Source: Gemmatimonadota bacterium (GTDB lineage: Bacteria; 4572-55; J002). Taken from it: a stretch of DNA of 64,000 bases. The translations under genes and the position numbers were made by a program. This document shows positions 34,785-60,119 of this stretch, in pieces. How positions within the stretch are numbered: the stretch's first letter is position 1; every line of letters starts with the position of its first letter. The stretch spans positions 1 through 64,000 of the forward strand of contig RFFQ01000146.1 of assembly GCA_003697105.1 (NCBI GenBank), in the 5' to 3' direction. The notes under the pieces are model-generated. The model saw only the letters and a list, made by a program, of their open reading frames with translations. It searched no databases and was not told the origin of the DNA.

Positions 34785-37700
34785 TTATTCACGTTTACGC
34801 AAATCGATAATCGGTTGGGCGTTTGCCGTTACTTGTAAGGTATCCATTTGTTTGTTGCAGAGGGTACCGGTGTCATCTTCTACGGTTAATGTAACGGTGT
34901 ACACCCCCGGTTTTTCATACTCATGGGTTACTTCCACGCCTTTGCCTGTATGGCCGTCCCCAAAATTCCAATAATAACTTAGATTGTCCCCATCAATATC
35001 GTAAGATTGGCTGCCATCAAAGGTCAGAGCACAGTTTGCGGTTTTCACACACGTGACCCGATCGTCACCGGCAATAGCAACCGGTGGGGTATTGGCTTTA
35101 ATCGTTTTTGTGACGATGGTGGTGTTACATGCGCCGGTGGTGTTATCCGTCACACGCAAGGTCACAGTATAATGCCCTGCTTTGGCGAAAGTATGGGTCG
35201 CGGTTTTGCCTGAAACTTCCGGCGATCCATCCCCAAAATCCCAAAAGTAGCCGGTGATTTGCCCGTCGGAATCGGTGGAGGCGGCGGCATTCACTTCAAA
35301 CGAGCTACCCGGACAGACGGAGGAAGGTGCGTCAATCTTCGCCAATGGCGGATTGTTGATGGAGACCTGCTTGACGTCTGTTGCCCGTCCAGAAGACAAG
35401 CCCGAATTATCGGTAACGGTCAAAATCACTTGATATACCCCCGGTTGCTTATAGGTATGCGTTGGTGCTACACCGGTTTGAGTCGGTGACCCGTCCCCAA
35501 AATTCCATTCGTATAAAATGATTGTCCCGTCGGGATCCACCGACTGGGAGCCGTCAAATTGCACCGTCAAATCGCAGAGGCCATCAATATCCGGACCCGC
35601 ATCCGCGACGGGTGGGGCATTGACTGTCACGGTGAGTTGATCGATTGCCATGCTGCAATCCAGACCGGAATTATCTTCAACGGAAAGTGTTACCGTGTAT
35701 CGCCCCGGTTCGCCATATTTATGGGTCGTACTTACCCCTTCGACCGGTTTGGAGCCATCCCCGAAATCCCAGCGGTACACCTTGATGTACCCGTCCCTAT
35801 CAAAAGATTGCCCGCCGTTGACCGCAATTTCCTGATTCGGATTGACCAATTTATCATCTCCGGCAACAGCAACGGGTAAATCATTGACCAGAACAGTCTT
35901 AGAGATGTTACTCTTCGAGCAGGGCAACCCTCGTCCATCATCCACGGTGACAATGACTTTATAACGTCCCGGGGATTGGTAAATATGGGTCGTGGATAAG
36001 CCGGTACCCGTGTTTCCGTCGCCAAAATCCCATGTAGCTGTTAGGGGATCACCATCTGCATCAGTGGAGGCGGTGGCATCAAAGGAAGTGATTGCACCCA
36101 CGCAAGTGTACTGCAACCGTTCGCCAATGTTCGGCGTGGGGGGTGCATTGATGGTTACTTGAGTTTTTGCAAAGGATTGGTTCATTTTTGTGTCGGAATT
36201 ATCGGTAACGATCAGCGTTACGTCATATGTGCCGGGTTGTTCATACAAATGGACGACTTTTGCACCTTTGCCGGTTTGCCCGTCGCCGAAATCCCACTGA
36301 TAATCCATGATCATGCCGTCAGGGTCACTGGACCCGGAGGCGTTCAATTCTACCCGCCCGCTACAGACTACCTGTGACGGGTTCACCTTAGCCACCGGTG
36401 GATAGTTGATTACCACGAGCATTGTATCCCGGTCAAACCCTTCCGGTAGCCCGCTATCATCTCGCACGGTTAAAATTGCCTGATATTGCCCGGATTCTGC
36501 ATACGGGTGGGTGACGATTTTCCCCGTTTCCACCGGTGAGCCATCCCCAAAATCCCACTCGTAACTCACGATGTTGCCATCTCGATCCGAGGAAGAGGAG
36601 CCATCAAACGTGATCTCTTGTCCGACGTGTCCGATTTGCATTCCTTCGGTCAGGGCTTCCGGGGGATAGTTGACGGTCACTGTGAGTTCGTCGGTGTCGT
36701 TACTGCACGGACCTAACGCCGTATTTTTTACGGAAAGTGTGACCTGATATTGCCCCGGTTTGCGATAGATGTGTGTTGCTGTCATGCCTTCCACCGGATC
36801 GGAAAGGTCGCCAAATGTCCATTTGTAGGTCAATGGGTATTGATTCGGGTCTTGAGACCGTTCACCGCTAAAATGAACTTCTTGTCCTACACTGACCAAG
36901 CGGTCTTCACCGGCATCGGCGGTGGGGGCGCTCTCTACGGTGATCGTTGCGGTATCGGTATCAATGGCGCAAGGTGTTTCGGAATTATCTTGAACCGTCA
37001 ACACCACGTGGTAAACGCCGGGCGCAGCATAGGTGTAGGTGGGTGAAAGTTCTTCCACGGGCGCTGTTCCATCGCCGAAATCCCAAATATAGTTGAAGAG
37101 TTCCCCGTCTGGGTCAAAAGAGCCGCTGGCATCAAAAAAGATAGATTGACCAAGGCAGACCGTTCGATCCGGACCGGCTTCTGCCACGGGGGAGGAATTG
37201 ATCCCGACGGTAATCTCCGCAAAATGGGTATTGCATTCGGACGGCGAATCATCCAACACCACCAGTTTGACCTTATAAACACCGGGTTGTTCATAGGTGT
37301 GTGTGGGTTGGGGTCCTTTACCGACGGCACCATCGCCAAAATACCAGAGATACTCCATGATGACTCCGTCTGGATCGATTGATTGGCGCCCGTCAAATCG
37401 AACGGTTTTCTCACAAGAGACGATATTTTCACCGGCGTTGGCTACCGGCGGTTCGTTGACAAACACGACCATGCCATCAGTATTGGTGTTACATTCGGTA
37501 TCGGAATTATCGGTAACAACTAGCCGTACATTATACGAGCCGGATTTTTCATAAGTATGTTCCACAATCGCACCTTCTGCCGAGTTTCCATCACCAAAAT
37601 ACCACATGTATTGGGTGATAGTGCCATCGCGGTCATAGGACTTCGTGCCGTCAAAGCGGATCGTTTCGCCGACGCAGGAATAACGGGATGTACCGGCTTC

Positions 37701-39311
37701 GGCGACAGGTGGCTCATTGATGATGATGGTCAAGGCGTCGGTGTCGGTATCATTTGCCGCACCGGAATTATCTTGCACGGAAACCGTCACGACATAGGAA
37801 CCGGGTTCGCGGTAGGTGTGTACCACGCGCGCACCTTGGAGCTGTGTTCCATCGCCCATATCCCAGAAGAAACTAAGCAGATTGCCGTCGGGGTCCTGGG
37901 AGCGGGAGGCATCCAGTACCACCGTATTGCAAAAGGGGAGCACATCCTCGCCGGGAACAAGCCCTTCATAAACTTGGCTACCATGAACTAACAACGTTTC
38001 ATCCGGCAACACCGACCCCGCTTTGAGAGTCAAATCTTCTCGTAAGATGAGCGCTTCCTCCAATGTGACATCCCGATCCAAAACCGTCTGTGCTGGGATA
38101 CGTTCTCCACCTCGCACCCGAATATCCTGTGGAATTTCGGTGCCCTTGGCGAGGGTTGTCCCTTTGGGTAAGACGGAACCCGCCCGAAGTTCCACATCAG
38201 ACTGCACCACATGGCTTTGGTCGAATAAAATATCTTCGTCCAGCTCAAATAATTCGGGAGAAAAGGTCTCGTCTTGTAGCGTGAGGGGCTTGCCAGAACG
38301 AGGCTGGACGGTGGAATACATGGGAAGGGGTTGGTAGTTCTGGTCGGTGACATAGATCACCACATCATTATTACGGAAGGTTCCTTTTTGAATTTCAAAC
38401 GTCCAGGGCGACTCGTAATCTTCTTCTAAAATATTATACGTGGTAGAAAACCACCGTTTGACATCATCTTGGGGGGGAATCGGCGGATGTTCATCATCCA
38501 CACCGAGATCATATTTGGTCACTGCCCAGACGTTATTTCCGGCGGTGTAGGCGGGTATTCCGGGTCGCGTTGGTGTGTTAAGATACATCACGCTATCATT
38601 ATCAAAGTCCCAAATATGGTGAATGAGGTAAGTGACATCTCGCATAACCATAAACGGGAATGTATGCAATACCACCCCTTTTTCATTGGGCATCCGGAAC
38701 GACCATTCATAGGCAAAGACTTGAATCTCGGTTGGGGTGGTTGGTCGATCGGGGAAAATGGAGCAATCTACGCGGTATAGATTCCCGTCATCGCCCTGAA
38801 TGCCTTCTACAATTAGTTTGAAGATAAAATCCCCGTCGGCATATTCCCCTTGCGCCGGATTCACGGTGGCAAGCACAATCCATTTTCCATCCGTTTCGAG
38901 CTGCTCGGCAAATGTTGTGTCCGCCAAAAGAGTCCCCGAGCGGTAATCTCCGGTAGGATTGACGCCGCGGGCATCAGCAACTGTATAGGCACCTTCTCCT
39001 CCGTAAAGCGAAAATCGTGTTTGGGTGTCCCACATCCCTTGTGGCTCATCAACTTGGCCGCCCGCTTCCGGATCATAAATACGGATATATAATGAATCCA
39101 CAATTTCTTCCGGAATAGCGAAAAAGACGGTCTGTGAAAAATCGTCATCACCCCAATCTGGGGCACTTTGATTACCAAACGTACACAAATAGGGAATATT
39201 TAAACTGGGATGGGGGACTTCATCCGCTTCTTGGTAGGATGGTGTTCCGATGATAAAAAGGATTCCCAAAAACAGGGTTACGAGGACGTTACGGAACATC
39301 GGTGTAAACAT
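34785..39311 (-). CDS. Secreted protein with about 12 tandem PKD domains
   Basis: Twelve W-x-[FM]-GD signatures (FFWDMGDGTQ ... YYWNFGDGHT); signal peptide at MFTPMFRNVLVTLFLGILF with GGAGGAAGG RBS; ORF track start 39380. Confidence 0.9.
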   Translation of the reverse strand: MFTPMFRNVLVTLFLGILFIIGTPSYQEADEVPHPSLNIPYLCTFGNQSAPDWGDDDFSQTVFFAIPEEIVDSLYIRIYDPEAGGQVDEPQGMWDTQTRFSLYGGEGAYTVADARGVNPTGDYRSGTLLADTTFAEQLETDGKWIVLATVNPAQGEYADGDFIFKLIVEGIQGDDGNLYRVDCSIFPDRPTTPTEIQVFAYEWSFRMPNEKGVVLHTFPFMVMRDVTYLIHHIWDFDNDSVMYLNTPTRPGIPAYTAGNNVWAVTKYDLGVDDEHPPIPPQDDVKRWFSTTYNILEEDYESPWTFEIQKGTFRNNDVVIYVTDQNYQPLPMYSTVQPRSGKPLTLQDETFSPELFELDEDILFDQSHVVQSDVELRAGSVLPKGTTLAKGTEIPQDIRVRGGERIPAQTVLDRDVTLEEALILREDLTLKAGSVLPDETLLVHGSQVYEGLVPGEDVLPFCNTVVLDASRSQDPDGNLLSFFWDMGDGTQLQGARVVHTYREPGSYVVTVSVQDNSGAANDTDTDALTIIINEPPVAEAGTSRYSCVGETIRFDGTKSYDRDGTITQYMWYFGDGNSAEGAIVEHTYEKSGSYNVRLVVTDNSDTECNTNTDGMVVFVNEPPVANAGENIVSCEKTVRFDGRQSIDPDGVIMEYLWYFGDGAVGKGPQPTHTYEQPGVYKVKLVVLDDSPSECNTHFAEITVGINSSPVAEAGPDRTVCLGQSIFFDASGSFDPDGELFNYIWDFGDGTAPVEELSPTYTYAAPGVYHVVLTVQDNSETPCAIDTDTATITVESAPTADAGEDRLVSVGQEVHFSGERSQDPNQYPLTYKWTFGDLSDPVEGMTATHIYRKPGQYQVTLSVKNTALGPCSNDTDELTVTVNYPPEALTEGMQIGHVGQEITFDGSSSSDRDGNIVSYEWDFGDGSPVETGKIVTHPYAESGQYQAILTVRDDSGLPEGFDRDTMLVVINYPPVAKVNPSQVVCSGRVELNASGSSDPDGMIMDYQWDFGDGQTGKGAKVVHLYEQPGTYDVTLIVTDNSDTKMNQSFAKTQVTINAPPTPNIGERLQYTCVGAITSFDATASTDADGDPLTATWDFGDGNTGTGLSTTHIYQSPGRYKVIVTVDDGRGLPCSKSNISKTVLVNDLPVAVAGDDKLVNPNQEIAVNGGQSFDRDGYIKVYRWDFGDGSKPVEGVSTTHKYGEPGRYTVTLSVEDNSGLDCSMAIDQLTVTVNAPPVADAGPDIDGLCDLTVQFDGSQSVDPDGTIILYEWNFGDGSPTQTGVAPTHTYKQPGVYQVILTVTDNSGLSSGRATDVKQVSINNPPLAKIDAPSSVCPGSSFEVNAAASTDSDGQITGYFWDFGDGSPEVSGKTATHTFAKAGHYTVTLRVTDNTTGACNTTIVTKTIKANTPPVAIAGDDRVTCVKTANCALTFDGSQSYDIDGDNLSYYWNFGDGHTGKGVEVTHEYEKPGVYTVTLTVEDDTGTLCNKQMDTLQVTANAQPIIDLRKRE

Positions 39312-39500
39312 TGGGATTGATCCTTCCTCCTTAAAATTTTGCTTGAAATATGCGCGGGCATGGTCTATAATTAGAAACAATTGCGGATTGTTGTACAGAT
39401 TCCGTCCAGCTTAACATAATCTCCCCCGATTGTCAATAATTTTTCGGGATGATTTACTCCGGTTTATCATCCGGTGTAACTTGTTGATAATTAAATAGTT

Positions 39501-42500
39501 GTGGATGGCATTGATACCTTATTTAGCTCTAGAAAAGCGAAACGTATGACCACCTATAACCCGTACCTTTCTGAGGCTGTTGACACGCCTTCTTTTTTTT
39601 ATGGGCGCTCGGAAACAATTCGTTTTATACTCAACCAACTGCAAGAACCTCAGGCTCACCCGATCATCTTGTTTGGACAGCGGAAAGCGGGTAAAACCGC
39701 CGTTTTTCGCCATCTACTGCACCTCAAACCGGAGGGGTTTGTGTGGGTCTATTTTGATTTGCAAGGGTATGTACATGCGCCGTTAGCGGAAACCCTGTTC
39801 CATTTGGCAGAAGCCATTGCGCACCAACTGGATATTGCCATTCCCACCAAAAAAACCTTTTTGAAAGATGACCATTTCTTTGAAACCAAATTTCTGAATC
39901 AAATTCGGAGTGCACTCAAAGACCGTCACCCGGATCAGCCTCCGGCAATGGTGTTGTTGCTGGATGAATTTCATCTACCGCGCGGAGCAGATGTTGCCCG
40001 CGACGACACTATTGTGACCTTTTTTCCCTTCCTCTACCAGTTATTACAAAAGGATGCACCGCTACGGCTGGTGCTCACTTTTGGACCGGAATTAGCCATT
40101 TCCTACCGGAACAATCCACAGGCATATCAATTATTGACCCAAATTTTATCATCTCCACTGCTCCACGAGGGCGTGTCACATCATGTTACCTCTCTTTCCG
40201 TTGAAGACGCCCTAAAACTGATCAAAGAACCGGTTGGAAATCAATTGGTGTACAACCCGGAAGCCCTAGACCGCATTTTGAGCCTTGCTAGTACGTGTCC
40301 CTTTTTGATCCGCCAACTCTGCGGTCTTATCTATGAGAAAAAACAACCGGCTGACTCCGAACCGGTGGCGATCTATTCCACAGATGTGGAAGCGGTGAAA
40401 ACCGAATTTATCCGCCGCTTGCACTCCCATTTTGATGCCCTCTGGGACGATCTGCCCCTCGTGCAAAAAGTGATTTTCTGGCTTATTGCCAAACACCGGG
40501 ATTCTCAGGGTGCCGTTCCCCGGCAGAAATTGGTTTCTCTATTGGAACGCCAGCATATCAAATTGCCCAAAGGTTTATTCCAAAACCACGAGTTAGTAGC
40601 AGAAGAGAACCATGTTGTCCGGTTTCGCATCGGCGGTTTTGGGGATTGGCTGGTGGATCAGGATGTCGAAAATGATTTGATGATCGATTTTGGGCATGCC
40701 GAGAACTCCAACAAAGATGGGAGTAGTGCCCATTTTGCCGGTGAATTTGAACGGGCGCTGGAGTATTACCGGGAGGCGGTGGCTATCAATCCTTACCACC
40801 TAGATGCCCAGCTTGGTATCGCCGAAGTCCTGAGCCAATTGGGACGCACCGAAGAAAGCATTGAGGAGTACGAAAAAGCGTACCAATTAGACCCGTTTTT
40901 TGTGGCAGATGATCTGGTCAATGCCCGCTTAAAGTATGCCGGAGAATTGGAACAAGCCGGCGATAAAAATGGCGCCATTCTGCAATACAGCCGTATCTTG
41001 GAAATCTCACCCAACCATATGCGAGCCCAAGAGCTGTGGGCGGAGTTGGTACTGGAAAAAGGACAAAACTTGTGTGAACAGGAAAATTGGGACGACGCGA
41101 TCTATTGGTACCAGCAACTCTTGAACGTGGCACCAGCCTTGACCGTGGCACGATGTGCCCTCGCCGAAGTATATCTGCGGAAGGGAGAGTACGAAGCGGC
41201 GGTGAATGAATATGAAAAAGCCCACAATATCGACCGCAGTGAATCTGTGGCACACGGTTTGGCAAAGGCACGCCTCAAATGGGGTGAAGAACTCAAAGAA
41301 GAGGGGATGACCCCAGAAGCAATTGCCAATTATAAGCGAGTTCTTCTCACCGAACCGGATGAGGAAACCCGGGAAACGACCATCGCCAATTTGGTTAAAT
41401 TGATGCTCCGCCGGGCGGATCAAAGTGCTCAAGCCGGTGACCTGTTAAAAGCTCGGGAGGAATATCGCCGCGTGATCGAGATGGACGGTAATTGCTTAGA
41501 AGCCATGATCAAAGAAGCCGGTGTTGTCTATGCCATGGGTGATTATGACGAAGCGATTCGCCTGTTTGAAGCCGCCTGTGAAATCAATGAGGACATCGCT
41601 AAACCCGCCATGATTGCCACTCAACTCAATTATGCCGATCGATTAGCCACAAATGGCGCTTGGGACACCGCCATGGAGGTGTGCGACACCGTTCTTGCGC
41701 TCGACCCGGAAAATGTGTTGGCACAGGATAAACGCCGGCAATTTGAAGACCGCCGGAATCAGACTCCACCGGTGGCAGATGCCGGCACCACTGGTGAACC
41801 GGTTTCGACCGCTGATCCAGACCCCGTTACCGCGGATTCCGAGCAGGATACTGTTGACCTCGACCGGGAATACCAGCAGGCGATGGCATATCTGGAAAAT
41901 AAACAGTGGGATGAGGCGTTGGAATCCCTCAATCATATTTTTGAACAGGACCCAGACTACCGGGATGCGGATCAAACCCCGATACCGGTCTGGATTAGCC
42001 GTGCCTTTTTGGCCCGTGTCGGGCTTGCCGAAGACCTCCTGCCCCAACGCATACAGCAGTTGGAAGCGGAACTTGCTGCCCTAAAAGACGCTCATGCGGT
42101 GGAATTAGAAACCTTGCGCACGGCGGAAACTGAGGCAAGTTGGCAGTTAGAGTCGCTGGAAACCGAACGAGACCAGTTGCAGATAGAACTGAAAACCGTC
42201 CAGCGCCAATTAGCGGATGCCGAGGCAAAAGTCAAACAGATGGAGGCAGAAAACCTGATCCGGAATGCAGAAGTGGCTGCCCATTCACAAGACCTTTCGG
42301 TACACGTCACATCTGCCGACCAAACTATCGATGAAATGAACGACTTGATCGCGCAACTGAATTTAGAAAAACAAGCCCTTAAACATGAAGTGGCGCAGTT
42401 GCGAGACCAATTACTGGAACAAGCCGATCTGTTTGACCACTCGGAGGATACTCCCCAAGAGACCCTCTTGGCAGAGACGGAACAACTCCAGCACGAAAAC

Positions 42501-45443
42501 GACCAACTCCGTAAAACGAACGAGATGCTTGCCGCCCAACTCCAACGCTTACAAGAGGAAATAGAAGCCTCCGCCCCACCGGCTGAAACCGGAGCACCTG
42601 CGGCGGATCGCATTGCGGAACTTGAAGCCCAGCTTGCCACGCTAAAAACAGAACGTAATGAGTTACAAACCGTACTGGATCAGGTACAGTCCGATGCGGC
42701 GGAGCTTAAACAGGAATTCACAAGCCTACGCGAACAGCACCAGCATGACGCCGAGACCGTTAAAGCGCTGGAACAAGCAAATCGACAACTCCAAGAAGAA
42801 ATCGTTGCCTTGGAACAGGATGCGATTGACCCGCAGGAATTGAAACAAGCGGAAGAAACCATTGCCCAATTGACCCGTGAACGAGATCAATTGCAACTGG
42901 ATTTGCAGGTCGCAAATGAAAAACTGAAAACCTTACAAAATTCGATCCAAAATACGCCGGATCGATCCGCTGAAATTAGGGCATTGGAAAACGAAATTGA
43001 CATCCTCACAGAACGTTTAGAACACGCCACCGGTAAGGAAAACAAGCTGATCCAGAAAAACGTCAAGATGATGGACATCAACACCCGGTTGCTCAAACAG
43101 ATTTCCGAATTGCAGACCGAAGTAGAGAATGCCCAATCCCGGCTAAATGAAACAACTCAGCGTTATGAAAAGACCGAAATTCCCGCCTACAGGCTCAAAC
43201 TTGAAAATCTGAAACGGGAGTTGGAACAGCAGACGGCGGATTATGACCAATTACACGCTGAAGTGGAGCATCTTCGGGCAGAAAATCAGCAATTACACGA
43301 TCAGATTGCGCAACTGGAAGACCGAACCTCTGAACTCGACCTCAACCTGAAAAGTTATGAAACAGACCAACTGCGACCGTTGGAACAGGAGGCGAATACA
43401 CTCCGCCAACAATTGCACGAACGGGATCAGCAGATAAATGAACTCCAGAAAACCATTACCCGCTTGGAAACTCAATTGGACAACTTGAAGGCGGATTTGG
43501 CAGAGCAACAACGTCGCTATGAGGAAGTTGAAATCCCAAAACGAGAAGATGCCATCCGGGCATTGGAAGCCCAACAGCAAGAACAGACGGCGGCTCAGAC
43601 TGCACTGGAGGAACAACTCCAACGCACACAAGCCGAGCTAGATGACGCACGCCAACAATGGCGAGATATTGAGCACGATTATAAAACACTTCAAACGACG
43701 AACCAAGACCTCCAGCACCGAGTTGAAGACCTGCAACACCAATTGGAGACCATTCAACACGAACGAGACCAACTCCAACAAGAAATCACCGGTTTGCAGC
43801 AGAAATTAGAAGCAGAACAATTCCGACATCAGGAAGAACGAAAGTCGTTAAAAAGCGAAATTGAAACGTTAGCCACGGAAGCCGAACAGTACGCCCTCCA
43901 GACGGATGAACTGCGACAATTGCTCACCCAGCAACAAGCCACCGCCGAGAAACTGCGGGCAGAATATGACCACTTAGAAGAGCAATACGAACAGGTGCGC
44001 CTGCCAGAGCTAAACGAAAAAATTCAGACATTGCAAGAGAACGTCACTCATCTGGAAGCGCGACAGGTAGAACTGGAAAATCTGCTGGATAAAGCCGAAC
44101 GCGATTTAGCCTACCGTCAGGAACGGCTGAACCAATTACAGCAACGATATGATACGGAAACGGCATCCTTGCGGCGACAAATTGAGAACCTCTCCCAAGC
44201 GCTCGAGGCAAAATCCGACAATGAACAAAATCTATTGGAAAACAACACGGCGCTGACGCGTGCCAATACGGATTTGTTGCGACAGTTGTCGCAGTTAAAA
44301 GATGAACTGAATGAGGCTCAAAGACAACAAGCCCAATTTGAACAGATCGAACGCCTCCAGTTACAAAATGAAATCGATAAACTCAAGCGAACCTTAGCCA
44401 CCGAGGAACACCAGCGAGAACACTTGGAAAGCGAACTGGAAACGGCGACGCAGGCGCTGGAAGATGCGCATCAACGGGCAATAACTCTACAACAGGATTA
44501 TGAAGAAAATGTGATTGCCCCCCTCCAACAAGAGGTGGATGACTTGCGCCGGACCGTGAATGAAGCTAAAACACATGAAGAGATTTTACAACGCCGGTTG
44601 CGTGAAATGGAGCAGGAAAATCATCAATTGGTACGTGATCTGGAAGCATTGCGCGAAGAATATCAAACCGAACGCTTGCCCCAATTAGAGCGACAACTCA
44701 AAGACCAACAGGAAGAAACGGCGGCTAAAGCCAACCGCATTCGTGAACTGGAGACCCAACTCCACATTAAGGACCAAGAGATGGCGGCGTTGCGGACAGA
44801 ACTTCAGCAGATGCAAACACACTATGAACAGGAACGCTTGGCTCCGTTAGAGCAGCGTCTGGCACAACTGGAAACGCAACTGTTTGAAGCCGAAGGTAAC
44901 CTCAGTGATGCCCGGGCACATGCCACCTCCCTGCAAGACCAAATTGATGATTTACAGCAACAGTTGGAAGAACAACAAATTCGGTATGAAGTTCAGCAGA
45001 TTAAGCCGCTGCAACACCAGATCGACCTTCTTCAACAAAAAGTAACCGCCGCGGAACGTACCGAAAATCAATTGAAGGCAAAAGCGGAAGATGCTGAATC
45101 CGCCCACCAGTATGCGTTGCAACAGATTGAAGTTTTGCAGGATGAAATCGATCTCCTGCGGGAAAAAGCCGATCACGTTCGCCAACAGTACGAACACGAG
45201 CGCATTCCCGCCTTGCAACGAAAGATCGAGCGCCTCACCCAATCCAACCATGAAAAAAGTGAAAATATTGAACGGCTGAACCGGCTTCTTGCCGAAAAAT
45301 TGGAAGAAGAAGAAGAATTGCTCCGCCACAATACGGAAATGAGTGATAGCAATACCCGTTTGTTAAAGAAAATCAATGAGTTGCAGCGAGAAATTGTCTC
45401 ATTACGCCAACCGTTACCCAACGCTGATACGGAAGAGTCATGA
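39501..45443 (+). CDS. Giant STAND-like AAA ATPase + TPR + coiled-coil repeat protein
   Basis: FYGRSE, ILFGQRKAGKTAVF (Walker A), VLLLDEFH (Walker B), TPR units from about aa 415, then more than 1,100 aa of coiled coil. Alternative start MTTYNPY at 39546. Confidence 0.88.
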   Translation: MDGIDTLFSSRKAKRMTTYNPYLSEAVDTPSFFYGRSETIRFILNQLQEPQAHPIILFGQRKAGKTAVFRHLLHLKPEGFVWVYFDLQGYVHAPLAETLFHLAEAIAHQLDIAIPTKKTFLKDDHFFETKFLNQIRSALKDRHPDQPPAMVLLLDEFHLPRGADVARDDTIVTFFPFLYQLLQKDAPLRLVLTFGPELAISYRNNPQAYQLLTQILSSPLLHEGVSHHVTSLSVEDALKLIKEPVGNQLVYNPEALDRILSLASTCPFLIRQLCGLIYEKKQPADSEPVAIYSTDVEAVKTEFIRRLHSHFDALWDDLPLVQKVIFWLIAKHRDSQGAVPRQKLVSLLERQHIKLPKGLFQNHELVAEENHVVRFRIGGFGDWLVDQDVENDLMIDFGHAENSNKDGSSAHFAGEFERALEYYREAVAINPYHLDAQLGIAEVLSQLGRTEESIEEYEKAYQLDPFFVADDLVNARLKYAGELEQAGDKNGAILQYSRILEISPNHMRAQELWAELVLEKGQNLCEQENWDDAIYWYQQLLNVAPALTVARCALAEVYLRKGEYEAAVNEYEKAHNIDRSESVAHGLAKARLKWGEELKEEGMTPEAIANYKRVLLTEPDEETRETTIANLVKLMLRRADQSAQAGDLLKAREEYRRVIEMDGNCLEAMIKEAGVVYAMGDYDEAIRLFEAACEINEDIAKPAMIATQLNYADRLATNGAWDTAMEVCDTVLALDPENVLAQDKRRQFEDRRNQTPPVADAGTTGEPVSTADPDPVTADSEQDTVDLDREYQQAMAYLENKQWDEALESLNHIFEQDPDYRDADQTPIPVWISRAFLARVGLAEDLLPQRIQQLEAELAALKDAHAVELETLRTAETEASWQLESLETERDQLQIELKTVQRQLADAEAKVKQMEAENLIRNAEVAAHSQDLSVHVTSADQTIDEMNDLIAQLNLEKQALKHEVAQLRDQLLEQADLFDHSEDTPQETLLAETEQLQHENDQLRKTNEMLAAQLQRLQEEIEASAPPAETGAPAADRIAELEAQLATLKTERNELQTVLDQVQSDAAELKQEFTSLREQHQHDAETVKALEQANRQLQEEIVALEQDAIDPQELKQAEETIAQLTRERDQLQLDLQVANEKLKTLQNSIQNTPDRSAEIRALENEIDILTERLEHATGKENKLIQKNVKMMDINTRLLKQISELQTEVENAQSRLNETTQRYEKTEIPAYRLKLENLKRELEQQTADYDQLHAEVEHLRAENQQLHDQIAQLEDRTSELDLNLKSYETDQLRPLEQEANTLRQQLHERDQQINELQKTITRLETQLDNLKADLAEQQRRYEEVEIPKREDAIRALEAQQQEQTAAQTALEEQLQRTQAELDDARQQWRDIEHDYKTLQTTNQDLQHRVEDLQHQLETIQHERDQLQQEITGLQQKLEAEQFRHQEERKSLKSEIETLATEAEQYALQTDELRQLLTQQQATAEKLRAEYDHLEEQYEQVRLPELNEKIQTLQENVTHLEARQVELENLLDKAERDLAYRQERLNQLQQRYDTETASLRRQIENLSQALEAKSDNEQNLLENNTALTRANTDLLRQLSQLKDELNEAQRQQAQFEQIERLQLQNEIDKLKRTLATEEHQREHLESELETATQALEDAHQRAITLQQDYEENVIAPLQQEVDDLRRTVNEAKTHEEILQRRLREMEQENHQLVRDLEALREEYQTERLPQLERQLKDQQEETAAKANRIRELETQLHIKDQEMAALRTELQQMQTHYEQERLAPLEQRLAQLETQLFEAEGNLSDARAHATSLQDQIDDLQQQLEEQQIRYEVQQIKPLQHQIDLLQQKVTAAERTENQLKAKAEDAESAHQYALQQIEVLQDEIDLLREKADHVRQQYEHERIPALQRKIERLTQSNHEKSENIERLNRLLAEKLEEEEELLRHNTEMSDSNTRLLKKINELQREIVSLRQPLPNADTEES
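43164..45209 (+). repeat. Tandem 54-residue (162 bp) coiled-coil protein repeat
   Basis: Anchor Y-E-x3-[IL]-[PAR]-x-L... recurs 13 times (two degenerate); counted intervals 64,54,54,48,54,54,63,54,54,54,54,68 aa, summing to the 675 aa measured from DNA coordinates. Confidence 0.85.
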
Positions 45444-48400
45444 TGGACAAAAACCGGTACGAACAGGAGATTGAGGATTTACGGCGCGAGATTGATAGCC
45501 TAAATCGTGTTTTGCGGGAAAAATCCGCCTACGAAGACCGTCTGCAAACCAAAAATAAACGGTTGATGGAACGCAACAACCAACTGTTTAAGCAGGTTGC
45601 CGAATTGCAAGGAGACGTCGCCCGTCTGCACCAGCAGGTGTTCGCGCTCAATAAATCACCGGAAAGCTACCAAACGGCGGTCTTGCAGGCTGAATTAGAC
45701 CAGTTGCAATCGGTGGTGAACGAGTTGCAATCTCGTGAAACATCGCTCCTCGCCGAGAATCAGCGCTTAAAAACGGATTTGAATCATTGGCGATCTGCCA
45801 CGGCGCAGGATTCGCATGAGACGGTGCGTAAAACGGCTGAAATAGAGCAACTCAAACGGGCACGGCAAGAGGCCGAAGAACGCCTTTCCCGCAAAACCGC
45901 CGAATTTCTGGAACTGAGCGAACGCATTGGAGAACTGGATCGCATCTACGAAAAAACCATTGCGGAAGTCAAACGGTTACGCGAACAATTGACCGCGACG
46001 AAAGCGGAAAATCAGGACAAAACAGCCCGGCTGGCAAAGCTCCATGCTGAACAAGAAGACTTACAAGCACAATTGGTATCCCAGCAGTCCCGTGCGGCGG
46101 AGATGCAGGCGCAGTTGGCAGAGACTCGCTCTAAATTGAATCTGGCAGAGAAAAATATCCAACAGTTGACCGAAACTCTGCAAAAATATGAGCATCACCA
46201 AATACCGGTATTGCGCTCCCAACTGGATGATCTGAACCGCCAAATATCTGAAAAAGATAAAGAAATAAATATCTTACGCAAAAAAAATGAAGCCTTGGGG
46301 TCGGCAACCTCCGGTGCGGAGGCCTCCGCGGATGATGATGACACACGCCACCGGGAACTTCAACAGGAGGTGGAGCGTCTCAACAACGTGATCTCCCAAA
46401 AAGAGCGGGAACTGGAAATTTTAGCGCAGGATAAGCAAAAACTGGTCGATCAACAACTTCATTTTCAGCAAAGTTTGCAAGCGGAACTTGCCGCGAAAAT
46501 TGAACTGGAATTTCAACAGCGTGAACTCAACACCAAACTGGCCGCCGCCCAGCAAGAAATCGAGACGTTAAGAGCAGAACTTGCCGCTCGACCCGAACTG
46601 GCTACTGGCACGGATGGGCTTGAAACCGACCTCCAAAACTTGCAGGCACTGCTGGAGGAGCGGGATGCGACCATCGCCTCATTGAATGCCCAACTTTCTG
46701 AGATGGCAGACCCACTCGTCGCGGCTAAAGCTGAAAGTTTGCAACAGGAGTTGGATACCGCCCGGCGAAAAATTTCCGATTTGCGCACGGAAAATTCGTC
46801 TTTACAGCAGCAGTTGAACGACTTGAAAACCGCATTGGAGCATCGTCACTCCATCGAAGCAGAGATTACCAGTCTATCTGCCACCATTGACCGGCTTAAC
46901 CAATCGTTGGAAGCATCTGCGGCGGAAAAAGCCGATTTGAAGCGTGCCTATGATTCTCTGCGGCACGAGTGGGCAACACTTTACGAGCGTTTAAACCAAC
47001 CCGAACCTGTGTCTTCCAAAAAGAAATATCCGGCGTTTTGGTTGTGGTCGGTCTTCTTTTTACTTCTGGCGGTGCTGTTGCTCTTTTTACCGGAAACCCT
47101 TGACCAAACCAAATCGGTGTTTCCCCTCTCCAACCCACCGGTTATAACCCGTTTGGGTGCTCCTGACTCGATGACCTCCAATGTCACCCCGGCACCTCCG
47201 GTTCCGAGTGCAGATTCAACAACGGTAATCGCGGAAATGCCGCCGGAAAGCTCATCTCCGGCAGCTATAACCCCCGGCATCACTCCGGCTTCTGATTCAA
47301 CAACGGTAATCGCGGAAATGCCGCCGGAAAGCTCATCTCCGGCAGCTATAACCCCGCCTGCATCCGCACCGGAATCTGGAACGGTGGGTGCTGAACCGGC
47401 GCCGGAAACCGCTCCCCGCATGACGGTAGAACCCGAAACGACACCGGTTGCCGGCACGCCCGCTTCCGCATCATCCCCGACGTTTACCTTACCGGCTACC
47501 GTTGATTTGAGTGTGGATGTCAGTGGTGGAGAAGCTCCCTTAAAAACCACGTTCCACGCCCCGTTGCCAGAACCCACACCGGATAATCTCAACTTTTTGT
47601 GGGATTTTGGGGATGGGGTAACCAGCCGTCAGGCATCCCCCACCCATACCTATGTCCAGCCGGGTATTTACACCACCCGTCTGAACTTGCAATACGGTCA
47701 GGATTCCAAAACGGTTGGACAAGTCACGATTCAAGTGGATGCCCCCCCGCCCCCGCCAATTGCAGAAGCCTCGCTCGGCGAAGGGGATGCTAACCAAGGA
47801 AAACTCAAAACTGCTCCGCTGGCAACCCCAACCCCTAAACCCCGGTTGCAAGTCTCTACTACCGAAGGACGCGCCCCATTGGAAGTCCGTTTTTCATTAA
47901 GCGGGCTTGAAGGGATGCCGCATCTCTCCTATTTGTGGGATTTTGGGGATGGCAGTACCAGCAGTACCCAAGCGAATCCAACCCATATCTACCAAATGGC
48001 AGGAAATTATCGGGCTGTGGGTGTTGTCAAGCAGGGGAATCAAATTGTGGCGGAAGTCTCGCAGACGATTCGCGTGGTGCCGGATCAGCGCAATGTACGG
48101 ATTCAACAGTTGCATGCCATAGAAGAGATGGTTTTGATTCCGGCTGGAAATTTCCACATGGGTGATTTTCGAGGTGAACCGGATGCACAACCGCAAATTA
48201 TTGTCTTCTTAGATACCTATTATATTGATAAATACGAAGTTACCAATGCCCAATATGCGGAGTTTCTGAATCGTATCAATTATACACCAACAGATGATAA
48301 ATTCATTGAAATTTCGCACCCGGATTGTAAAATTTACTACGACTCGGATCAGGGATTTAAAGTTGAACCGGGTTATGAGTATTATCCCGTGGTTTGTGTC

Positions 48401-48841
48401 AGTTGGTACGGGGCAGATGCGTATGCCAAGGCACTGAATAAGCGATTACCCACCGAAGCGGAGTGGGAAAAAGCGGCACGGGGCGAACAAGATGTGCGCA
48501 GTTACCCTTGGGGAAATCAGTGGATCCCCAATATTGCCAACACCCGGGAACTCTCTTTGGGCAGTGGACCAACCAAAGTGGGGCGATTTCCTGCCGGTGA
48601 AAGCCCTTACGGGGTGGTTGATCTCATCGGGAATGTCTCTGAATGGTGTGCCGATTGGTATCAAGAAGATTTTTATCAGCGGCATTCTGGTAAGAATCCG
48701 GCGGGTCCCGTTTCGGGTACGATGCGCGTTTATCGCGGCGGGTCTTACAGCGATCTGGGTGCGCATGCCCGCGTGTTTGATCGCGCCGCGGCAAGCCCAG
48801 ATGCCAAGCATCCAACCCGAGGGTTTCGCTGTGCCCGGTAG
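45440..48841 (+). CDS. Coiled-coil + transmembrane + Pro/Ser/Thr linker + 2 PKD + FGE/SUMF1-fold protein
   Basis: N-terminal coiled coil, TM FWLWSVFFLLLAVLLLFLP, two WDFGDG PKD domains, then MVLIPAGNFHMGD...RLPTEAEWEKAARG...GNVSEWCADWY...YRGGSY...RGFRCA. Confidence 0.9.
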   Translation: MMDKNRYEQEIEDLRREIDSLNRVLREKSAYEDRLQTKNKRLMERNNQLFKQVAELQGDVARLHQQVFALNKSPESYQTAVLQAELDQLQSVVNELQSRETSLLAENQRLKTDLNHWRSATAQDSHETVRKTAEIEQLKRARQEAEERLSRKTAEFLELSERIGELDRIYEKTIAEVKRLREQLTATKAENQDKTARLAKLHAEQEDLQAQLVSQQSRAAEMQAQLAETRSKLNLAEKNIQQLTETLQKYEHHQIPVLRSQLDDLNRQISEKDKEINILRKKNEALGSATSGAEASADDDDTRHRELQQEVERLNNVISQKERELEILAQDKQKLVDQQLHFQQSLQAELAAKIELEFQQRELNTKLAAAQQEIETLRAELAARPELATGTDGLETDLQNLQALLEERDATIASLNAQLSEMADPLVAAKAESLQQELDTARRKISDLRTENSSLQQQLNDLKTALEHRHSIEAEITSLSATIDRLNQSLEASAAEKADLKRAYDSLRHEWATLYERLNQPEPVSSKKKYPAFWLWSVFFLLLAVLLLFLPETLDQTKSVFPLSNPPVITRLGAPDSMTSNVTPAPPVPSADSTTVIAEMPPESSSPAAITPGITPASDSTTVIAEMPPESSSPAAITPPASAPESGTVGAEPAPETAPRMTVEPETTPVAGTPASASSPTFTLPATVDLSVDVSGGEAPLKTTFHAPLPEPTPDNLNFLWDFGDGVTSRQASPTHTYVQPGIYTTRLNLQYGQDSKTVGQVTIQVDAPPPPPIAEASLGEGDANQGKLKTAPLATPTPKPRLQVSTTEGRAPLEVRFSLSGLEGMPHLSYLWDFGDGSTSSTQANPTHIYQMAGNYRAVGVVKQGNQIVAEVSQTIRVVPDQRNVRIQQLHAIEEMVLIPAGNFHMGDFRGEPDAQPQIIVFLDTYYIDKYEVTNAQYAEFLNRINYTPTDDKFIEISHPDCKIYYDSDQGFKVEPGYEYYPVVCVSWYGADAYAKALNKRLPTEAEWEKAARGEQDVRSYPWGNQWIPNIANTRELSLGSGPTKVGRFPAGESPYGVVDLIGNVSEWCADWYQEDFYQRHSGKNPAGPVSGTMRVYRGGSYSDLGAHARVFDRAAASPDAKHPTRGFRCAR
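47213..47355 (+). repeat. Two exact 62-bp copies, 81-bp period, in the extracytoplasmic linker
   Basis: gattcaacaacggtaatcgcggaaatgccgccggaaagctcatctccggcagctataacccc at 47213-47274 and 47294-47355. Confidence 0.95.
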
Positions 48842-48930: not shown

Positions 48931-51006
48931 ATGACGGCAGTAACCACACCTAAATATACGGATTTGCACGATCCGAGTCTCTATTTCAATCGCGAACTCA
49001 GTTGGATTCAGTTTAACGAGCGCGTACTCCGGGAAGCTCTAGACCCCGATAATTGGCCCCTATTGGAGCGACTCAAATTTCTCTCCATTTTTAGCACCAA
49101 TTTGGATGAATTTTTTATGATTCGGGTTGCCGGTCTTAAACAGCAGATCGGTGCGGAGATTCACAAAAAATCTCCGGATGGCCTCACGCCAGAAGAGCAA
49201 CTCAAATTAATTTCAGAGCAAGTTCACCGGCAAGTTGACGCCCAGATAACGTGCTTCATGGAGGATATCTTGCCCAAACTGGAAACTGCCGGTATTTATT
49301 TTCATCACTACCGTGACTTAAATCCGGCGCATCGGAAATTCTTAGATAAACTCTTTAAAAAAGATATTTTTCCGGTATTGACTCCGTTGGGCTTTGACCC
49401 CGGACGACCGTTTCCCCATTTGCTGAATATCAGTATTTACATTGCTTTTTTTGTTAGAGATGCGAATCAGCACGAGGAAGAACCCAAATTTGCCATTGTA
49501 CAAATGCCCTCTACATTGCCTCGCTTAATTCCCCTCCCGTACAAGCGAGGCACACATTTTGCCCTGTTGGAAGATGTTATCAGTGCAAATGCGCATCGCC
49601 TTTTTTTGGGATATGATGTCCTCGAATGCTATCCTTTTCAGGTCACCCGAGATGCGGACTTGGAAATTGCCGAAGATGAAGCGGATGACCTGCTGGAAAC
49701 GGTAGAACGCGAGGTCAATAAGCGGCGGTGGGGTAAAGCTGTTCGTCTGGCGATTGATCACTGTATGCCGGATAAGATTCGGGGTATCCTCGCGGACTCC
49801 CTCAATTTGCACCCGCAGGATGTGTACGAAGTGAAGGGTCCCTTGAATCTCTCTGATTTTATGCAACTGTATAAACTGGATCGACCGGATTTGAAAGATA
49901 AGCCGTTCACGCCCCGTTCCGTCCCCGATGTGCAAGGTTATAATACCATTTTTGATGCGATTCAGGAGAAAGATATTCTCCTTCACCACCCGTATGAATC
50001 TTTTAATAGTGTCATTGATTTTGTGCGAACCGCCGCAGAAGACCCCAACGTACTTGCCATTAAAATGACGCTTTACCGCACGGGAGTGGACTCGCCGATT
50101 CTGCGGGCACTCTCTACCGCCGTGGAAAATGGAAAACAAGTAGCGGTTCTGGTGGAGTTGAAAGCGCGGTTTGATGAAGAAAATAACATCGTTTGGGCAC
50201 GGTTACTGGCAAAATCCGGGGTTCATGTGGTGTATGGCTTGTTAGGCTTAAAGACCCACTGTAAAGTTGCTTTAGTTGTCCGGCGTGAGGGTAATCTCAT
50301 CCGGCGGTATGTTCACTTGGCTACCGGCAATTACAATCCCACAACGGCTAAAATCTACACCGACTTGGGCTTGATGACGTGTCACCCAGATTTTGGCGAA
50401 GATGTATCCCACCTGTTTAATTATCTGACGGGTTATTCTCGCCGCCAAAAATGGCGAAAATTACTGGTTTCACCCCTCAATTTACGGCAAGAATTGATTC
50501 GCTTGGTGCGGGATGAGATCATTATCCATGAAAAAAGCGGCAACGGCTGGATTATCCTCAAAATGAATTCCTTGCTCGATGCCGAAATGATCCGCTATTT
50601 GTACCAAGCGTCACAAGCCGGTGTCCGGGTTGATCTGCTGATCCGGGGGATTTGCTCGTTGCGTCCCGGCGTGCCGGGGATTAGCGATAACATTCGGGTC
50701 AAGAGTATTGTGGGGCGGTTTTTGGAACACAGCCGGATTTTTTACTTTCGGAATGGTGGTGATGAACGTGTCTATTTAGGCAGTGCGGATTGGATGCCCC
50801 GCAACCTCGACCGGCGCGTAGAAACCGTTTTCCCTGTGGAAGACCCGCGCTTGAAGCGTCGCATCACGGATGAGATTTTGATAACCACCTTGAAAGACAA
50901 TGTGAAATCATACGAACTAAAAAGTGATGGTACGTATGAAAAGATTCCGCACTCCCCTGAAAATGCAGTGAATTGCCAAGAAATATTTCTCAATGAATAC
51001 GACTAA
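48931..51006 (+). CDS. ppk1: Polyphosphate kinase
   Basis: YFNRELSWIQFNERVLREA...FSTNLDEFFMIRVAGL...HHPYESFNSVIDFV...GLKTHCK...HLATGNYN. Confidence 0.97.
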   Translation: MTAVTTPKYTDLHDPSLYFNRELSWIQFNERVLREALDPDNWPLLERLKFLSIFSTNLDEFFMIRVAGLKQQIGAEIHKKSPDGLTPEEQLKLISEQVHRQVDAQITCFMEDILPKLETAGIYFHHYRDLNPAHRKFLDKLFKKDIFPVLTPLGFDPGRPFPHLLNISIYIAFFVRDANQHEEEPKFAIVQMPSTLPRLIPLPYKRGTHFALLEDVISANAHRLFLGYDVLECYPFQVTRDADLEIAEDEADDLLETVEREVNKRRWGKAVRLAIDHCMPDKIRGILADSLNLHPQDVYEVKGPLNLSDFMQLYKLDRPDLKDKPFTPRSVPDVQGYNTIFDAIQEKDILLHHPYESFNSVIDFVRTAAEDPNVLAIKMTLYRTGVDSPILRALSTAVENGKQVAVLVELKARFDEENNIVWARLLAKSGVHVVYGLLGLKTHCKVALVVRREGNLIRRYVHLATGNYNPTTAKIYTDLGLMTCHPDFGEDVSHLFNYLTGYSRRQKWRKLLVSPLNLRQELIRLVRDEIIIHEKSGNGWIILKMNSLLDAEMIRYLYQASQAGVRVDLLIRGICSLRPGVPGISDNIRVKSIVGRFLEHSRIFYFRNGGDERVYLGSADWMPRNLDRRVETVFPVEDPRLKRRITDEILITTLKDNVKSYELKSDGTYEKIPHSPENAVNCQEIFLNEYD

Positions 51007-52951
51007 AACGATTCTTCTAATTGATGATGACCCCCATATTCGTCACCTGATTGGGTTGTTTTTACGGCGGACGGATTACCACCTGATTAGTGCCGGTGAT
51101 GGGGAATCCGGTTTACGCTTGATCCGAGAAAAAAAACCGGCGGCGATTCTGCTAGACCGGATGTTACCGGGACTCTCCGGTGACGAGGTTCTGCGCCGGT
51201 TGCGGCATGACCCAGCCTACCGGGAAGTCGCCCAGACACCGGTGATTGTGCTAACCGCACTTTCCGGGCGGGAAGTTCGTCAAAAAACACTCGAATTAGG
51301 CGCCAACGCTTATCTCACCAAGCCCGTCACCTTTGATATGTTGACCAACCAATTGGAAAGTGTCCTTTACCACTATTCTCTAGCTCTTCCAGCGGAGCCG
51401 TCCCTTACCAGTGATATTTACGAATTGTTGGTGGAAAATATCCATGATCTGGTTTTTGTTCTCTCGGCTTCGGGACAGGTGATGTATATCAATCCCCGCG
51501 TGCAGGATATGCTCGGCTACCCCCAAACGGAGATGTCCCAACGGTATTTCTCTGATTTTGTTTATCCCGATGATGTGGCCGTGGTTCAAGGCGTACTTAG
51601 CCACATTGTGGAAACCGGCGAACTGCATCAATTGGAAATCCGAATGCTCCACAAGGATAACAGCTTGCGGTATATGGAATTGACCGGAAAGCGGGTTGCT
51701 CGGAAAGATCAATACTTGATCATGGGTTCGGCGCGGGATGTGACGGTTGAGAATGACCTGCGGCAATCCGTGCGGCATTATGCCGAAAATTTGCAAGAGA
51801 TGGTCGAACGCCGGACGTACGAATTAGAGTTGGCAAAAAGTGAGATTACCTATCTGTTTCAGACCATCTCTCAGGTAATTGCACAATCGTCGATTGCGCG
51901 TAAAATCGAGGTGATTTGTGAGGCACTCGTCCGGGATCGATTTTACCAACAAGTGGTGATTGAAATTTACAACACCGATAATGTGCTTACGCACCGCACA
52001 GAACGGGGTCACATTGATGCGAATATCAGCCCGCAGCGCTATCGCTACCCGTTTTACCGGCAGGATGAAACTGTTTTGGGGTATCTGGAGGTGTACAACC
52101 CGCTGATTGAACTCTCGGACGAAGTGCAACGCATGATCAATTTATTTGTCAATGTCATTGCTCTTTCCATTGAGCGAGCCGAATTAGAGAGCGAAAATGA
52201 GGCAATCCATAAAGAATTGGTGGTGAAGAAGCTGGAGGCGGATGAACTGAGTATCCTCAAGTCGGAATTTATGAATAATGTCGGGCATGAATTTCGAACC
52301 CCGCTGGCAATTATTATCGGCTATCTGGATGTATTAACTCGGGGTATTGGGGGCAAGTTAAACGCGCGACAAGCCCAAATGGTGCAAGTCATGCGGGAAA
52401 ATGCGGATAAACTCCATCGATTAATTCAAGATATTCTGGATTTTTCACAGATTCAACTGAATGGGTTATCGGTTGCTTACGAACCCTGTGCCGTTCCCCA
52501 ACTGATCCTTTCTGCCACCGCCCGGGTGACCAATATGGCTAAGCAAAAAAATATTGCGCTCACCTATGTGTATCCGCATGATTTACCGGAAATTTTGCTT
52601 GACCCAAGCAAAACGGCACGTATTCTCCATGTGTTATTGGATAATGCCGTGAAATTTACGGACCCCGGTGGGACGGTGACGCTGGAAGCTGTGCATAACC
52701 AACATGAGATTCGGTTTCGGGTCAAAGATAGCGGTCATGGCATTGCCGAAGCAGACCGGGAGAAGATTTTTGAACCGTTCCGCCAAGGGGATGGCTCAAC
52801 GATTCGGGAACATGGCGGCACCGGGTTAGGGTTGAGTTTTGCCAAACATCTAACCGAATTATTGGAGGGGGAATTATCTTTCACCAGTGTGGTGGGGCAG
52901 GGTACAACGTTTGAAGTGGCGTTTCCCTTACGCTATGCGGAATGTTCGTAG
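50993..52951 (+). CDS. Receiver-PAS-GAF-like hybrid histidine kinase
   Basis: Receiver ILLDRMLPGLSGDE; PAS region; H-box NNVGHEFRTPLAIIIGYL; GTGLGLSFAK. Confidence 0.93.
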   Translation: MNTTKTILLIDDDPHIRHLIGLFLRRTDYHLISAGDGESGLRLIREKKPAAILLDRMLPGLSGDEVLRRLRHDPAYREVAQTPVIVLTALSGREVRQKTLELGANAYLTKPVTFDMLTNQLESVLYHYSLALPAEPSLTSDIYELLVENIHDLVFVLSASGQVMYINPRVQDMLGYPQTEMSQRYFSDFVYPDDVAVVQGVLSHIVETGELHQLEIRMLHKDNSLRYMELTGKRVARKDQYLIMGSARDVTVENDLRQSVRHYAENLQEMVERRTYELELAKSEITYLFQTISQVIAQSSIARKIEVICEALVRDRFYQQVVIEIYNTDNVLTHRTERGHIDANISPQRYRYPFYRQDETVLGYLEVYNPLIELSDEVQRMINLFVNVIALSIERAELESENEAIHKELVVKKLEADELSILKSEFMNNVGHEFRTPLAIIIGYLDVLTRGIGGKLNARQAQMVQVMRENADKLHRLIQDILDFSQIQLNGLSVAYEPCAVPQLILSATARVTNMAKQKNIALTYVYPHDLPEILLDPSKTARILHVLLDNAVKFTDPGGTVTLEAVHNQHEIRFRVKDSGHGIAEADREKIFEPFRQGDGSTIREHGGTGLGLSFAKHLTELLEGELSFTSVVGQGTTFEVAFPLRYAECS

Positions 52952-52983
52952 GGGATTCCCCAAAAGTGCCTTTCGATCACGCC

Positions 52984-53655
52984 TCACGTTAACCGGCGCA
53001 ATGCCATATACGTCAAACCCACCACAATTAGGACGATACTCGTGAGGAATACCCCCCAGTGATAATCAACCATACCATATAGGACAAAAGACCCGATAAG
53101 AATCCCACCGAGAAGCATTCGGGCTTGCCGCGTCGTTTTGGCGAGTGCCGAAATCGAGATTGCCCCTAAGCCGAACAGGGTGGGTATGACCCAGATTACA
53201 AGCCCCCAGACCAACACATCCCCCCACGAAACCCCTCCCAGAAAAAAGACCACCGCAAAAAACGGAAGTGCCAATAGTGCCAACATCATAACACTCACCA
53301 GAGAGCCGTACAATTTGCCAAAAAGTAACTCCCGGGGGTTAAGGGGAGTTAACGCTAAGGCATCGAAGGTCTGTTTTTCCCGTTCACCGGCAATCTCCAT
53401 CAGATTCACCCCAATGCTGTTGATACTCAAAAAAAACGTGAGCAATCCAGCCAAACTTTGAAAAAAATGACGCCCGACTTGGGATAAATTCGATTGGGCA
53501 ACACCGGCACTCAACCATACTCCCAGAAAAAAAAGTGTCATGACCAGCATGGTGAGTAAAAATACAAATTGATTCCGAAATACTCGCTTTGCCCGGATGT
53601 AACGGCGCCAGTTGCTCCGGGTGAGGGGGTTGATTTCGTATTGCCCGTCACTCAT
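52984..53655 (-). CDS. ABC-2-type transporter permease
   Basis: Multi-TM; EIAGEREKQTFDALALTPLNPRELLFGKLYGSL signature; start MSDGQYEINPLTR preferred over 53706. Confidence 0.8.
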   Translation of the reverse strand: MSDGQYEINPLTRSNWRRYIRAKRVFRNQFVFLLTMLVMTLFFLGVWLSAGVAQSNLSQVGRHFFQSLAGLLTFFLSINSIGVNLMEIAGEREKQTFDALALTPLNPRELLFGKLYGSLVSVMMLALLALPFFAVVFFLGGVSWGDVLVWGLVIWVIPTLFGLGAISISALAKTTRQARMLLGGILIGSFVLYGMVDYHWGVFLTSIVLIVVGLTYMALRRLT

Positions 53656-53739
53656 GGGTGTTGTGAGGCTGACAAACGTGAATATATAGGCAACGATCGG
53701 GGGCATGAATCCCTCTAACTGGGGTACAGGTGAATTGTC

Positions 53740-53774
53740 AAAAAAACCTCGTTCAAGCGATGCCTGAACGAGGT
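53740..53774 (-). terminator. Rho-independent terminator for the subtilase gene
   Basis: Minus strand ACCTCGTTCA-loop-TGAACGAGGT followed by TTTTTT. Confidence 0.75.
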
Positions 53775-53833
53775 GTATTTGGTGCGGTGAACGCCAAAAG
53801 TCAAGTTTTTATTTTGGGTTGGGAAAATTTTCC

Positions 53834-56587: not shown

Positions 56588-56749
56588 TGAAAAATGCTCC
56601 TTATTTGAGAGATACATATTTGGGAGATATACATTAAGGGAATTGAAATGTAGCCGGAAATTGGGGAAAACGGGGTGGGGTTTCCTTTACGTTTGTTGGA
56701 AATTAAAGCTCTACGGATGTTTGGTCAATATTTTTGTCTCATTCCAGGG

Positions 56750-56778
56750 TTGACTTTTTAGGGGTTTTCATCTAAATA
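56750..56778 (+). promoter_or_regulatory. Sigma70-type promoter abutting a start codon
   Basis: TTGACT-17 nt-TAAATA ending 8 nt before ATG 56786. Confidence 0.45.
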
Positions 56779-56785
56779 GCGACTT

Positions 56786-60115: not shown

Positions 60116-60119
60116 TGAT

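Follow-up and report, generated by a model that had tools for sequence, protein, structure and literature searches.

Does a giant bacterial coiled coil hold a period longer than the heptad, and what would such a period do? The question arises in a 64,000-nucleotide stretch of a Gemmatimonadota bacterium (assembly GCA_003697105.1, contig RFFQ01000146.1, positions 1 to 64,000; hereafter, the window), where protein P joins a predicted ATPase domain and TPR repeats to a very long coil, and the next gene encodes protein D, a predicted membrane protein with a coil of its own (Table 1). An initial annotation listed 13 anchor strings of the type Y-E-x3-[IL]-[PA] in the coil of P and took them for regular hinges of a ruler-like filament that had expanded by duplication of a 162-bp unit. 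We confirm the anchors and the period in part and find partial support for the interpretation: nine proline-bearing anchors recur at non-random spacings, eight of them shift the heptad register by the same amount and, judging from sequence, P is most likely a long jointed cytoplasmic tether running from an ATPase/TPR head to the envelope protein D.

Proline-bearing anchors and the 54-residue period

All 13 strings lie exactly at the implied positions (residues 1222-1897; DNA 43164-45189), with exactly the claimed spacings of 64, 54, 54, 48, 54, 54, 63, 54, 54, 54, 54 and 68 residues. Repeat detection by autocorrelation bears out the period: over residues 1192-1980, lag 54 was the best of lags 30-150, with a mean BLOSUM62 score of 0.227, whereas the null peaked at about -0.11 to -0.15. 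The null consisted of 500 shuffles for each of five block sizes, from 1 to 27 residues; 0/500 shuffles reached the observed value, and its z score ranged from 7.3 for single-residue shuffles down to 5.2 for 27-residue blocks. No 54-residue period appears in residues 856-1221, the first third of the coil.

The strongest single fact for the anchors is the placement of proline. Residues 1192-1970, a stretch of 779, contain nine prolines, every one at Tyr+6 or Tyr+7; random placement puts a mean of 0.39 there, and none of 200,000 random placements equaled the observed nine of nine. Proline is thus a regular landmark of a non-random anchor period. We scored each anchor with a 54-column position-specific profile built from all units but the one being scored. 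Eight of the nine proline anchors of P reached 10.2 to 33.3 bits; the weakest, YQTERLP, scored -0.5 bits, a value attained by ~0.3% of block-shuffled positions. The four degenerate strings lacking proline found no support, FEQIERL scoring -4.4 bits and YKTLQTT, RHQEERK and YDTETAS ranking 62nd, 55th and 24th among all positions, which is background. Since these four fall away, the claim that eight of 12 intervals equal 54 does not hold as made; the intervals between the proline anchors are 64, 54, 156, 171, 54, 54, 54 and 68, so that exactly 54 occurs in four of eight, and the probability of at least four equal intervals under random placement is 2e-5. Beyond P and D, no proline anchor was found elsewhere in the genome. 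A degenerate DNA pattern for the anchor, run over the whole genome, gave noise, its matches equaling those of a reversed-pattern control.

Register of the coil and the meaning of 54

We assigned heptad positions as the Viterbi path of a seven-state cyclic heptad model trained on the coils of both proteins. Hydrophobic residues (LIVMFY) make up 0.62 of a positions and 0.65 of d positions, compared with 0.06-0.10 at the others; all core asparagines are at a (14/14 in P and 6/6 in D, 20/20 together), and 93 leucines are at d. Asparagine at a combined with a dominance of leucine at d is a sign of a parallel dimer, and the coil of P is probably parallel and two-stranded. At eight of the nine proline anchors the path jumps by +2 states, equivalent to the loss of two residues or the gain of five, between anchor +2 and +5, and it makes such a jump nowhere else in the coil of P.

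To reduce circularity, we retrained the model on residues 856-1190 of P and 1-530 of D, excluding the anchors of P (the set includes the single anchor of D, whose shift differs), and compared the 28 residues upstream with the 28 downstream of each anchor. A -2/+5 shift was favored at residues 1222, 1340, 1496, 1667, 1721, 1775, 1829 and 1897, beating continuity by 15.3 to 33.5 bits at these eight and by +227 bits summed over all nine. Control positions in P preferred continuity (60/90) or a stutter (30/90), and those in D continuity (123/125). At the degenerate strings the register is continuous (YKTLQTT), stutters (RHQEERK and YDTETAS) or shifts by +1 (FEQIERL); these results agree with the profile scores in setting the degenerate strings apart from the proline anchors.

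The number 54 had been explained as 15 turns at 3.6 residues per turn, which is numerology. The hydrophobic pattern gives seven uninterrupted heptads (49 residues) plus a 5-residue, equivalently -2, shift (54 = 7x7+5), and the interval of 68 is nine heptads plus the same 5-residue shift (68 = 9x7+5), since two successive a positions at each regular anchor are 5 and not 7 residues apart.

Elements shared by P and D

The stop codon of P and the start codon of D overlap in the sequence ATGA, and D begins with a coil of about 525 residues. This coil contains one further proline anchor (46187), which is missing from the list in the initial annotation, as is a second element common to the two proteins. 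This twin-Asn cassette of 56 residues carries two asparagines one heptad apart, both at a, has the consensus ...NRxLEEKSxxExxLLxKNTxMMDxNTRLLKQISELQxEV... and occurs in three copies in P and one in D, with a pairwise identity of 29-36%. No cassette was found elsewhere in the genome, and 385 other genomes yielded only a pair of marginal matches, both in coils (E 3e-4 and 6e-4). Because of the gene overlap, the shared anchor and the shared cassette (z 6.0-7.7), with neither element elsewhere in the genome, we propose that P and D are coupled.

A second anchor-like site in D (45665-45700, residues 76-87, SYQTAVLQAELD) has a -2/+5 jump at residue 82 and no proline.

Proposed mechanism and alternatives

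With roughly even confidence, we propose that nine register-resetting proline anchors interrupt an otherwise canonical coil, making P a kinked rod that tethers its ATPase/TPR module to D. The anchor element places Tyr at a, followed by [EQ], three variable residues, [IL] at a' and P or xP, mostly with Leu at d'. Neighboring regular anchors are separated by seven (once nine) full heptads, with 5 residues in place of 7 for one a-to-a step at each of them. At anchor +2/+3, the site of the register jump, the amide hydrogen bond from proline would be missing, which could let the helices remain helical yet kink or unwind locally. The rod, about 165 nm long if fully extended, would then be able to bend at intervals of about 8 nm. 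One end of such a rod would be the ATPase/TPR module in the cytoplasm, and the other would reach D, a membrane protein with two PKD domains and a non-catalytic FGE-like domain that may be an envelope receptor-like partner. In this model P and D would pair, the rod would flex and signals might be transmitted along it.

Structure prediction bears on what happens at an anchor. AlphaFold2, given an alignment of 11 units, predicted a single unbroken helix through the anchor (pLDDT 98), and a single-sequence AlphaFold model of residues 1627-1980 (354 residues; pTM 0.28, weak) stays helical at all five of its anchors. With both models helical there, the regular hinges suggested earlier survive as possible kinks, but nothing points to open hinges or turns. 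According to Hartmann et al. (PMC4786415), an insertion of 5 has to be distributed across two heptads or more, which gives 19/5. Because of this spreading and the helical models, a locally unwound or kinked helical joint is favored over a loop, a beta-layer or a hairpin. A profile search of the PDB with the 54-residue unit retrieved generic coils only.

Several points weigh against the jointed tether. The anchor at residue 1286 and that of D (residue 250) prefer a +1 shift rather than -2, and the intervals 1340-1496 and 1496-1667 hold additional discontinuities, which makes for an imperfect lattice. The AlphaFold2 model of 54 residues is a short monomer and cannot reveal a kink in a dimer, and the only internal turn of the 354-residue model lies at residues 1800-1807, away from the anchors. 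Conservation of the spacing finds no support from an orthologue, none of P having been found in genome searches or in two GTDB contig scans. The oligomeric state, the contact between P and D, their localization and the tether role are all deduced from sequence.

An elaboration that we hold to be possible, if unlikely, is that P and D form a spliced cable, the C-terminal cassette of P pairing in parallel with the N-terminal cassette of D, and the proline anchor serving as a new kind of joint that passes on or absorbs conformational change. It is somewhat less probable that a partner binds the anchors as short linear sites distributed along a generic coil, with the register shift as a by-product. 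Conservation of Tyr-Glu and Pro amid variable neighbors would suit binding sites, as would the copy in D; however, eight of the nine sites share one shift, for which a structural role suffices.

We give the same low probability to the period having arisen by expansion of a 162-bp unit, as the initial annotation had it. Lag 54 does rank first among lags 30-150 and four anchor intervals are equal. However, with the anchor masked, successive 54-residue units had a mean amino acid identity of 13.8% at the true offset, a displacement of one heptad to either side giving 17.8% and 14.5%, nucleotide identity was 34% compared with 35%, masked leave-one-out profiles were mostly outscored by non-anchor positions, and neither TRF nor a repeat search found a tandem array of period 162 in the DNA. 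Because the sequence between the anchors is no more similar at offset 54 than one heptad to either side, and the DNA holds no tandem repeat, duplication is unsupported. An ancient duplication, eroded past detection, is possible; the period may equally reflect selection on the placement of anchors within the coil.

Slightly less probable again is a helix-turn-helix arrangement, in which the anchors would be the turns of spectrin-like antiparallel bundles of ~49-residue helices and P would not form a straight rod. A proline coincides with a register break at each anchor, and DivIVA-like domains place a Tyr motif in a short interhelix loop (PMC9858780). Yet the anchors have no loop rich in Gly, Asn or Asp, the core continues through Tyr at a and Ile/Leu at a', the restriction of asparagine to a with leucine at d suits a parallel dimer, and the anchor stays helical in AlphaFold. 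Chance pattern-picking in a coil rich in Gln, Glu and Leu, which could explain the four degenerate strings chosen post hoc, is already refuted for the nine proline anchors by block-shuffle z scores of 5-7 and the nine of nine prolines at Tyr+6/7, and we consider it practically nil.

Domain architecture and gene neighborhood

The features of the jointed-tether candidate and its partner are listed in Table 1.

Table 1. Coordinates of protein P, protein D and their features in the window.
Feature	Position	Strand	Basis
Protein P, 1980 aa (ATPase, TPR, giant coiled coil)	39501..45443	+	Open reading frame
P, ATPase_2/AAA_22-like P-loop domain; Walker A GQRKAGKT, Walker B LLLDE	39597..40094	+	Pfam, below curated cut-off
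P, TPR repeats	40710..41990	+	Pfam TPR families
P, coiled coil, aa 856-1970; L at d, I/V/N at a	42066..45410	+	Cyclic heptad model
Twin-Asn cassette 1, P aa 1160-1215	42978..43145	+	Leave-one-out z 7.7
Anchor 1, YEKTEIPAY, aa 1222, shift -2/+5	43164..43190	+	Profile, register model
Anchor 2, YETDQLRPL, aa 1286, shift +1 (exception)	43356..43382	+	Profile, register model
Anchor 3, YEEVEIPKR, aa 1340, shift -2/+5	43518..43544	+	Profile, register model
Anchor 4, YEQVRLPEL, aa 1496, shift -2/+5	43986..44012	+	Profile, register model
Twin-Asn cassette 2, P aa 1555-1610	44163..44330	+	Leave-one-out z 6.0
Anchor 5, YEENVIAPL, aa 1667, shift -2/+5	44499..44525	+	Profile, register model
Anchor 6, YQTERLPQL, aa 1721, shift -2/+5	44661..44687	+	Profile, register model
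Anchor 7, YEQERLAPL, aa 1775, shift -2/+5	44823..44849	+	Profile, register model
Anchor 8, YEVQQIKPL, aa 1829, shift -2/+5	44985..45011	+	Profile, register model
Anchor 9, YEHERIPAL, aa 1897, shift -2/+5	45189..45215	+	Profile, register model
Twin-Asn cassette 3, P C-terminus, aa 1917-1972	45249..45416	+	Leave-one-out z 6.9
Protein D, 1133 aa (N-terminal coil, transmembrane segment, two PKD, FGE-like domain)	45440..48841	+	Open reading frame
Twin-Asn cassette 4, D N-terminus, aa 12-67	45473..45640	+	Leave-one-out z 6.9
Anchor 10, D, YEHHQIPVL, aa 250, shift +1	46187..46213	+	Leave-one-out 14.1 bits, best non-anchor -0.1
D, single transmembrane segment, preceded by KKK	47024..47095	+	Hydropathy
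D, two PKD domains	47507..48073	+	Pfam
D, FGE-sulfatase-like domain	48122..48838	+	Pfam 190 bits, E 6e-56; alignment to FGE 6s07 E 3e-31

P is called from a GTG at 39501, and an ATG at codon 16 (39546; MTTYNPY...) is a possible alternative, so its true start is uncertain. Upstream, 39343-39371 resembles a promoter (TTGAAA-17-TATAAT) by consensus match only. A profile built from the N-terminus of P with its relatives matched the PDB entries 2fna (E 2e-9) and 2qen, and the Walker A and B motifs together with this likeness to solved members point to an ATPase_2/STAND-like P-loop ATPase. Hydropathy revealed no transmembrane stretch in P. We rejected SMC/Rad50 identity, which would call for split ABC heads and a hinge: the matches were confined to the coil (103.9 bits compared with a curated cut-off of 567 bits), and the sole ATPase is N-terminal and of another type. 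PADLOC gave no match to the N-terminal part of P and weak matches in D, in the coil only.

The coil side of D probably lies inside the cell. Its FGE-like domain lacks the catalytic Cys pair, FLCHESYC of 6s07 aligning with YSDLGAH. Five further places in the same genome have FGE domains. Directly upstream of P and divergent from it (34785-39380, reverse strand) is a gene whose 1531-residue product has at least 12 PKD domains, a domain also present in D. In the region after D (48931-61121), a subtilase gene lies on the opposite strand; the other products there are a polyphosphate kinase, sensor kinases, a response-regulator/GAF/guanylate-cyclase protein and an ABC ATPase.

Relatives and distribution

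The genomes searched included one other of the same class, which lacks P, the phylum being otherwise unrepresented; the GTDB contig pattern scans detect close relatives only, which makes absence there weak evidence. The ATPase domain of P had only relatives of 20-27% identity in 97 other genomes; two of these were inspected, and neither carries a coil of this kind. Its coil gave weak generic coil matches in 59 other genomes, the anchor profile had no match at 1e-4 in 385, and the coil region of D had one weak coil match in 30. None of 80 FGE-domain relatives of D from other genomes (37-48% identity) has anchors or an adjoining coil of comparable length.

The same genome encodes an ATPase-TPR-coil paralog of P (L024:4491-8930; G000:C67), 30% identical over residues 15-578, which has no proline anchors and ends in a long acidic part and then a short helical-looking domain. 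We also rejected the idea that P is the target of a diversity-generating retroelement, the only reverse transcriptase in this 97% complete genome being a 22-bit fragment with stops.

Comparison with known coiled coils

The eukaryotic SF-assemblin has a 29-residue repeat of four heptads and a skip residue and so resembles P in combining n heptads with a constant register slip. Its slip is of one residue, and we know of no proline anchor in it. Among bacteria, Scy/FilP of Streptomyces reportedly have a 51-residue coil repeat. PMC6599971, citing Walshaw 2010, counts them among the cytoskeletal proteins built from coiled coils and gives them a variant coil repeat. Like P they are long coils with a regular non-heptad supra-period; their family marks, however, are an N-terminal DivIVA-like motif (RGYDxxEVD) and hendecads (PMC9858780), whereas P has canonical heptads, a period set by a proline-bearing 5-residue shift and a fusion to an ATPase/TPR part. 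A Pfam scan of P and D gave no DivIVA match, and RGYDxxEVD is not present in the anchors. PolyDIV proteins also carry several copies of a Tyr motif along one coiled-coil chain, but there RGYDxxEVD lies in a loop before a new helix, in 2-8 copies arranged in pairs, and the proteins are thought to be monomeric (PMC9858780), whereas YExxx[IL]P lies inside a predicted helix in an odd number of copies.

Skips, stammers, stutters and beta-layers resemble the anchors in that a local insertion alters the register. In the portions available of two sources (PMC4786415, PMC5082667), the discontinuities described are insertions of 1, 2, 3, 4 or 6 residues, and a periodic proline-marked 5-residue (-2) shift is not among them. 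Golgins and other long tethers (PMC5082667) likewise use a very long spacer coil to link a membrane-linked part to another end, but they are eukaryotic, have no known homology to P and have no regular period.

The regularity in P is real, quantitatively clean and unusual, although P belongs to an already known kind, the long coiled coil with periodic discontinuities, and is not a new type of machine. P supplies eight natural copies of a repeated 5-residue (-2) shift, of which we found no periodic example described in the portions of the literature available. If the anchors are true joints, they would provide a sequence rule for a jointed coiled-coil rod, namely n heptads followed by Y-E-x3-[IL]-(x)P, and the P-D gene pair suggests that this bacterium may couple a cytoplasmic ATPase to its envelope across more than 100 nm.

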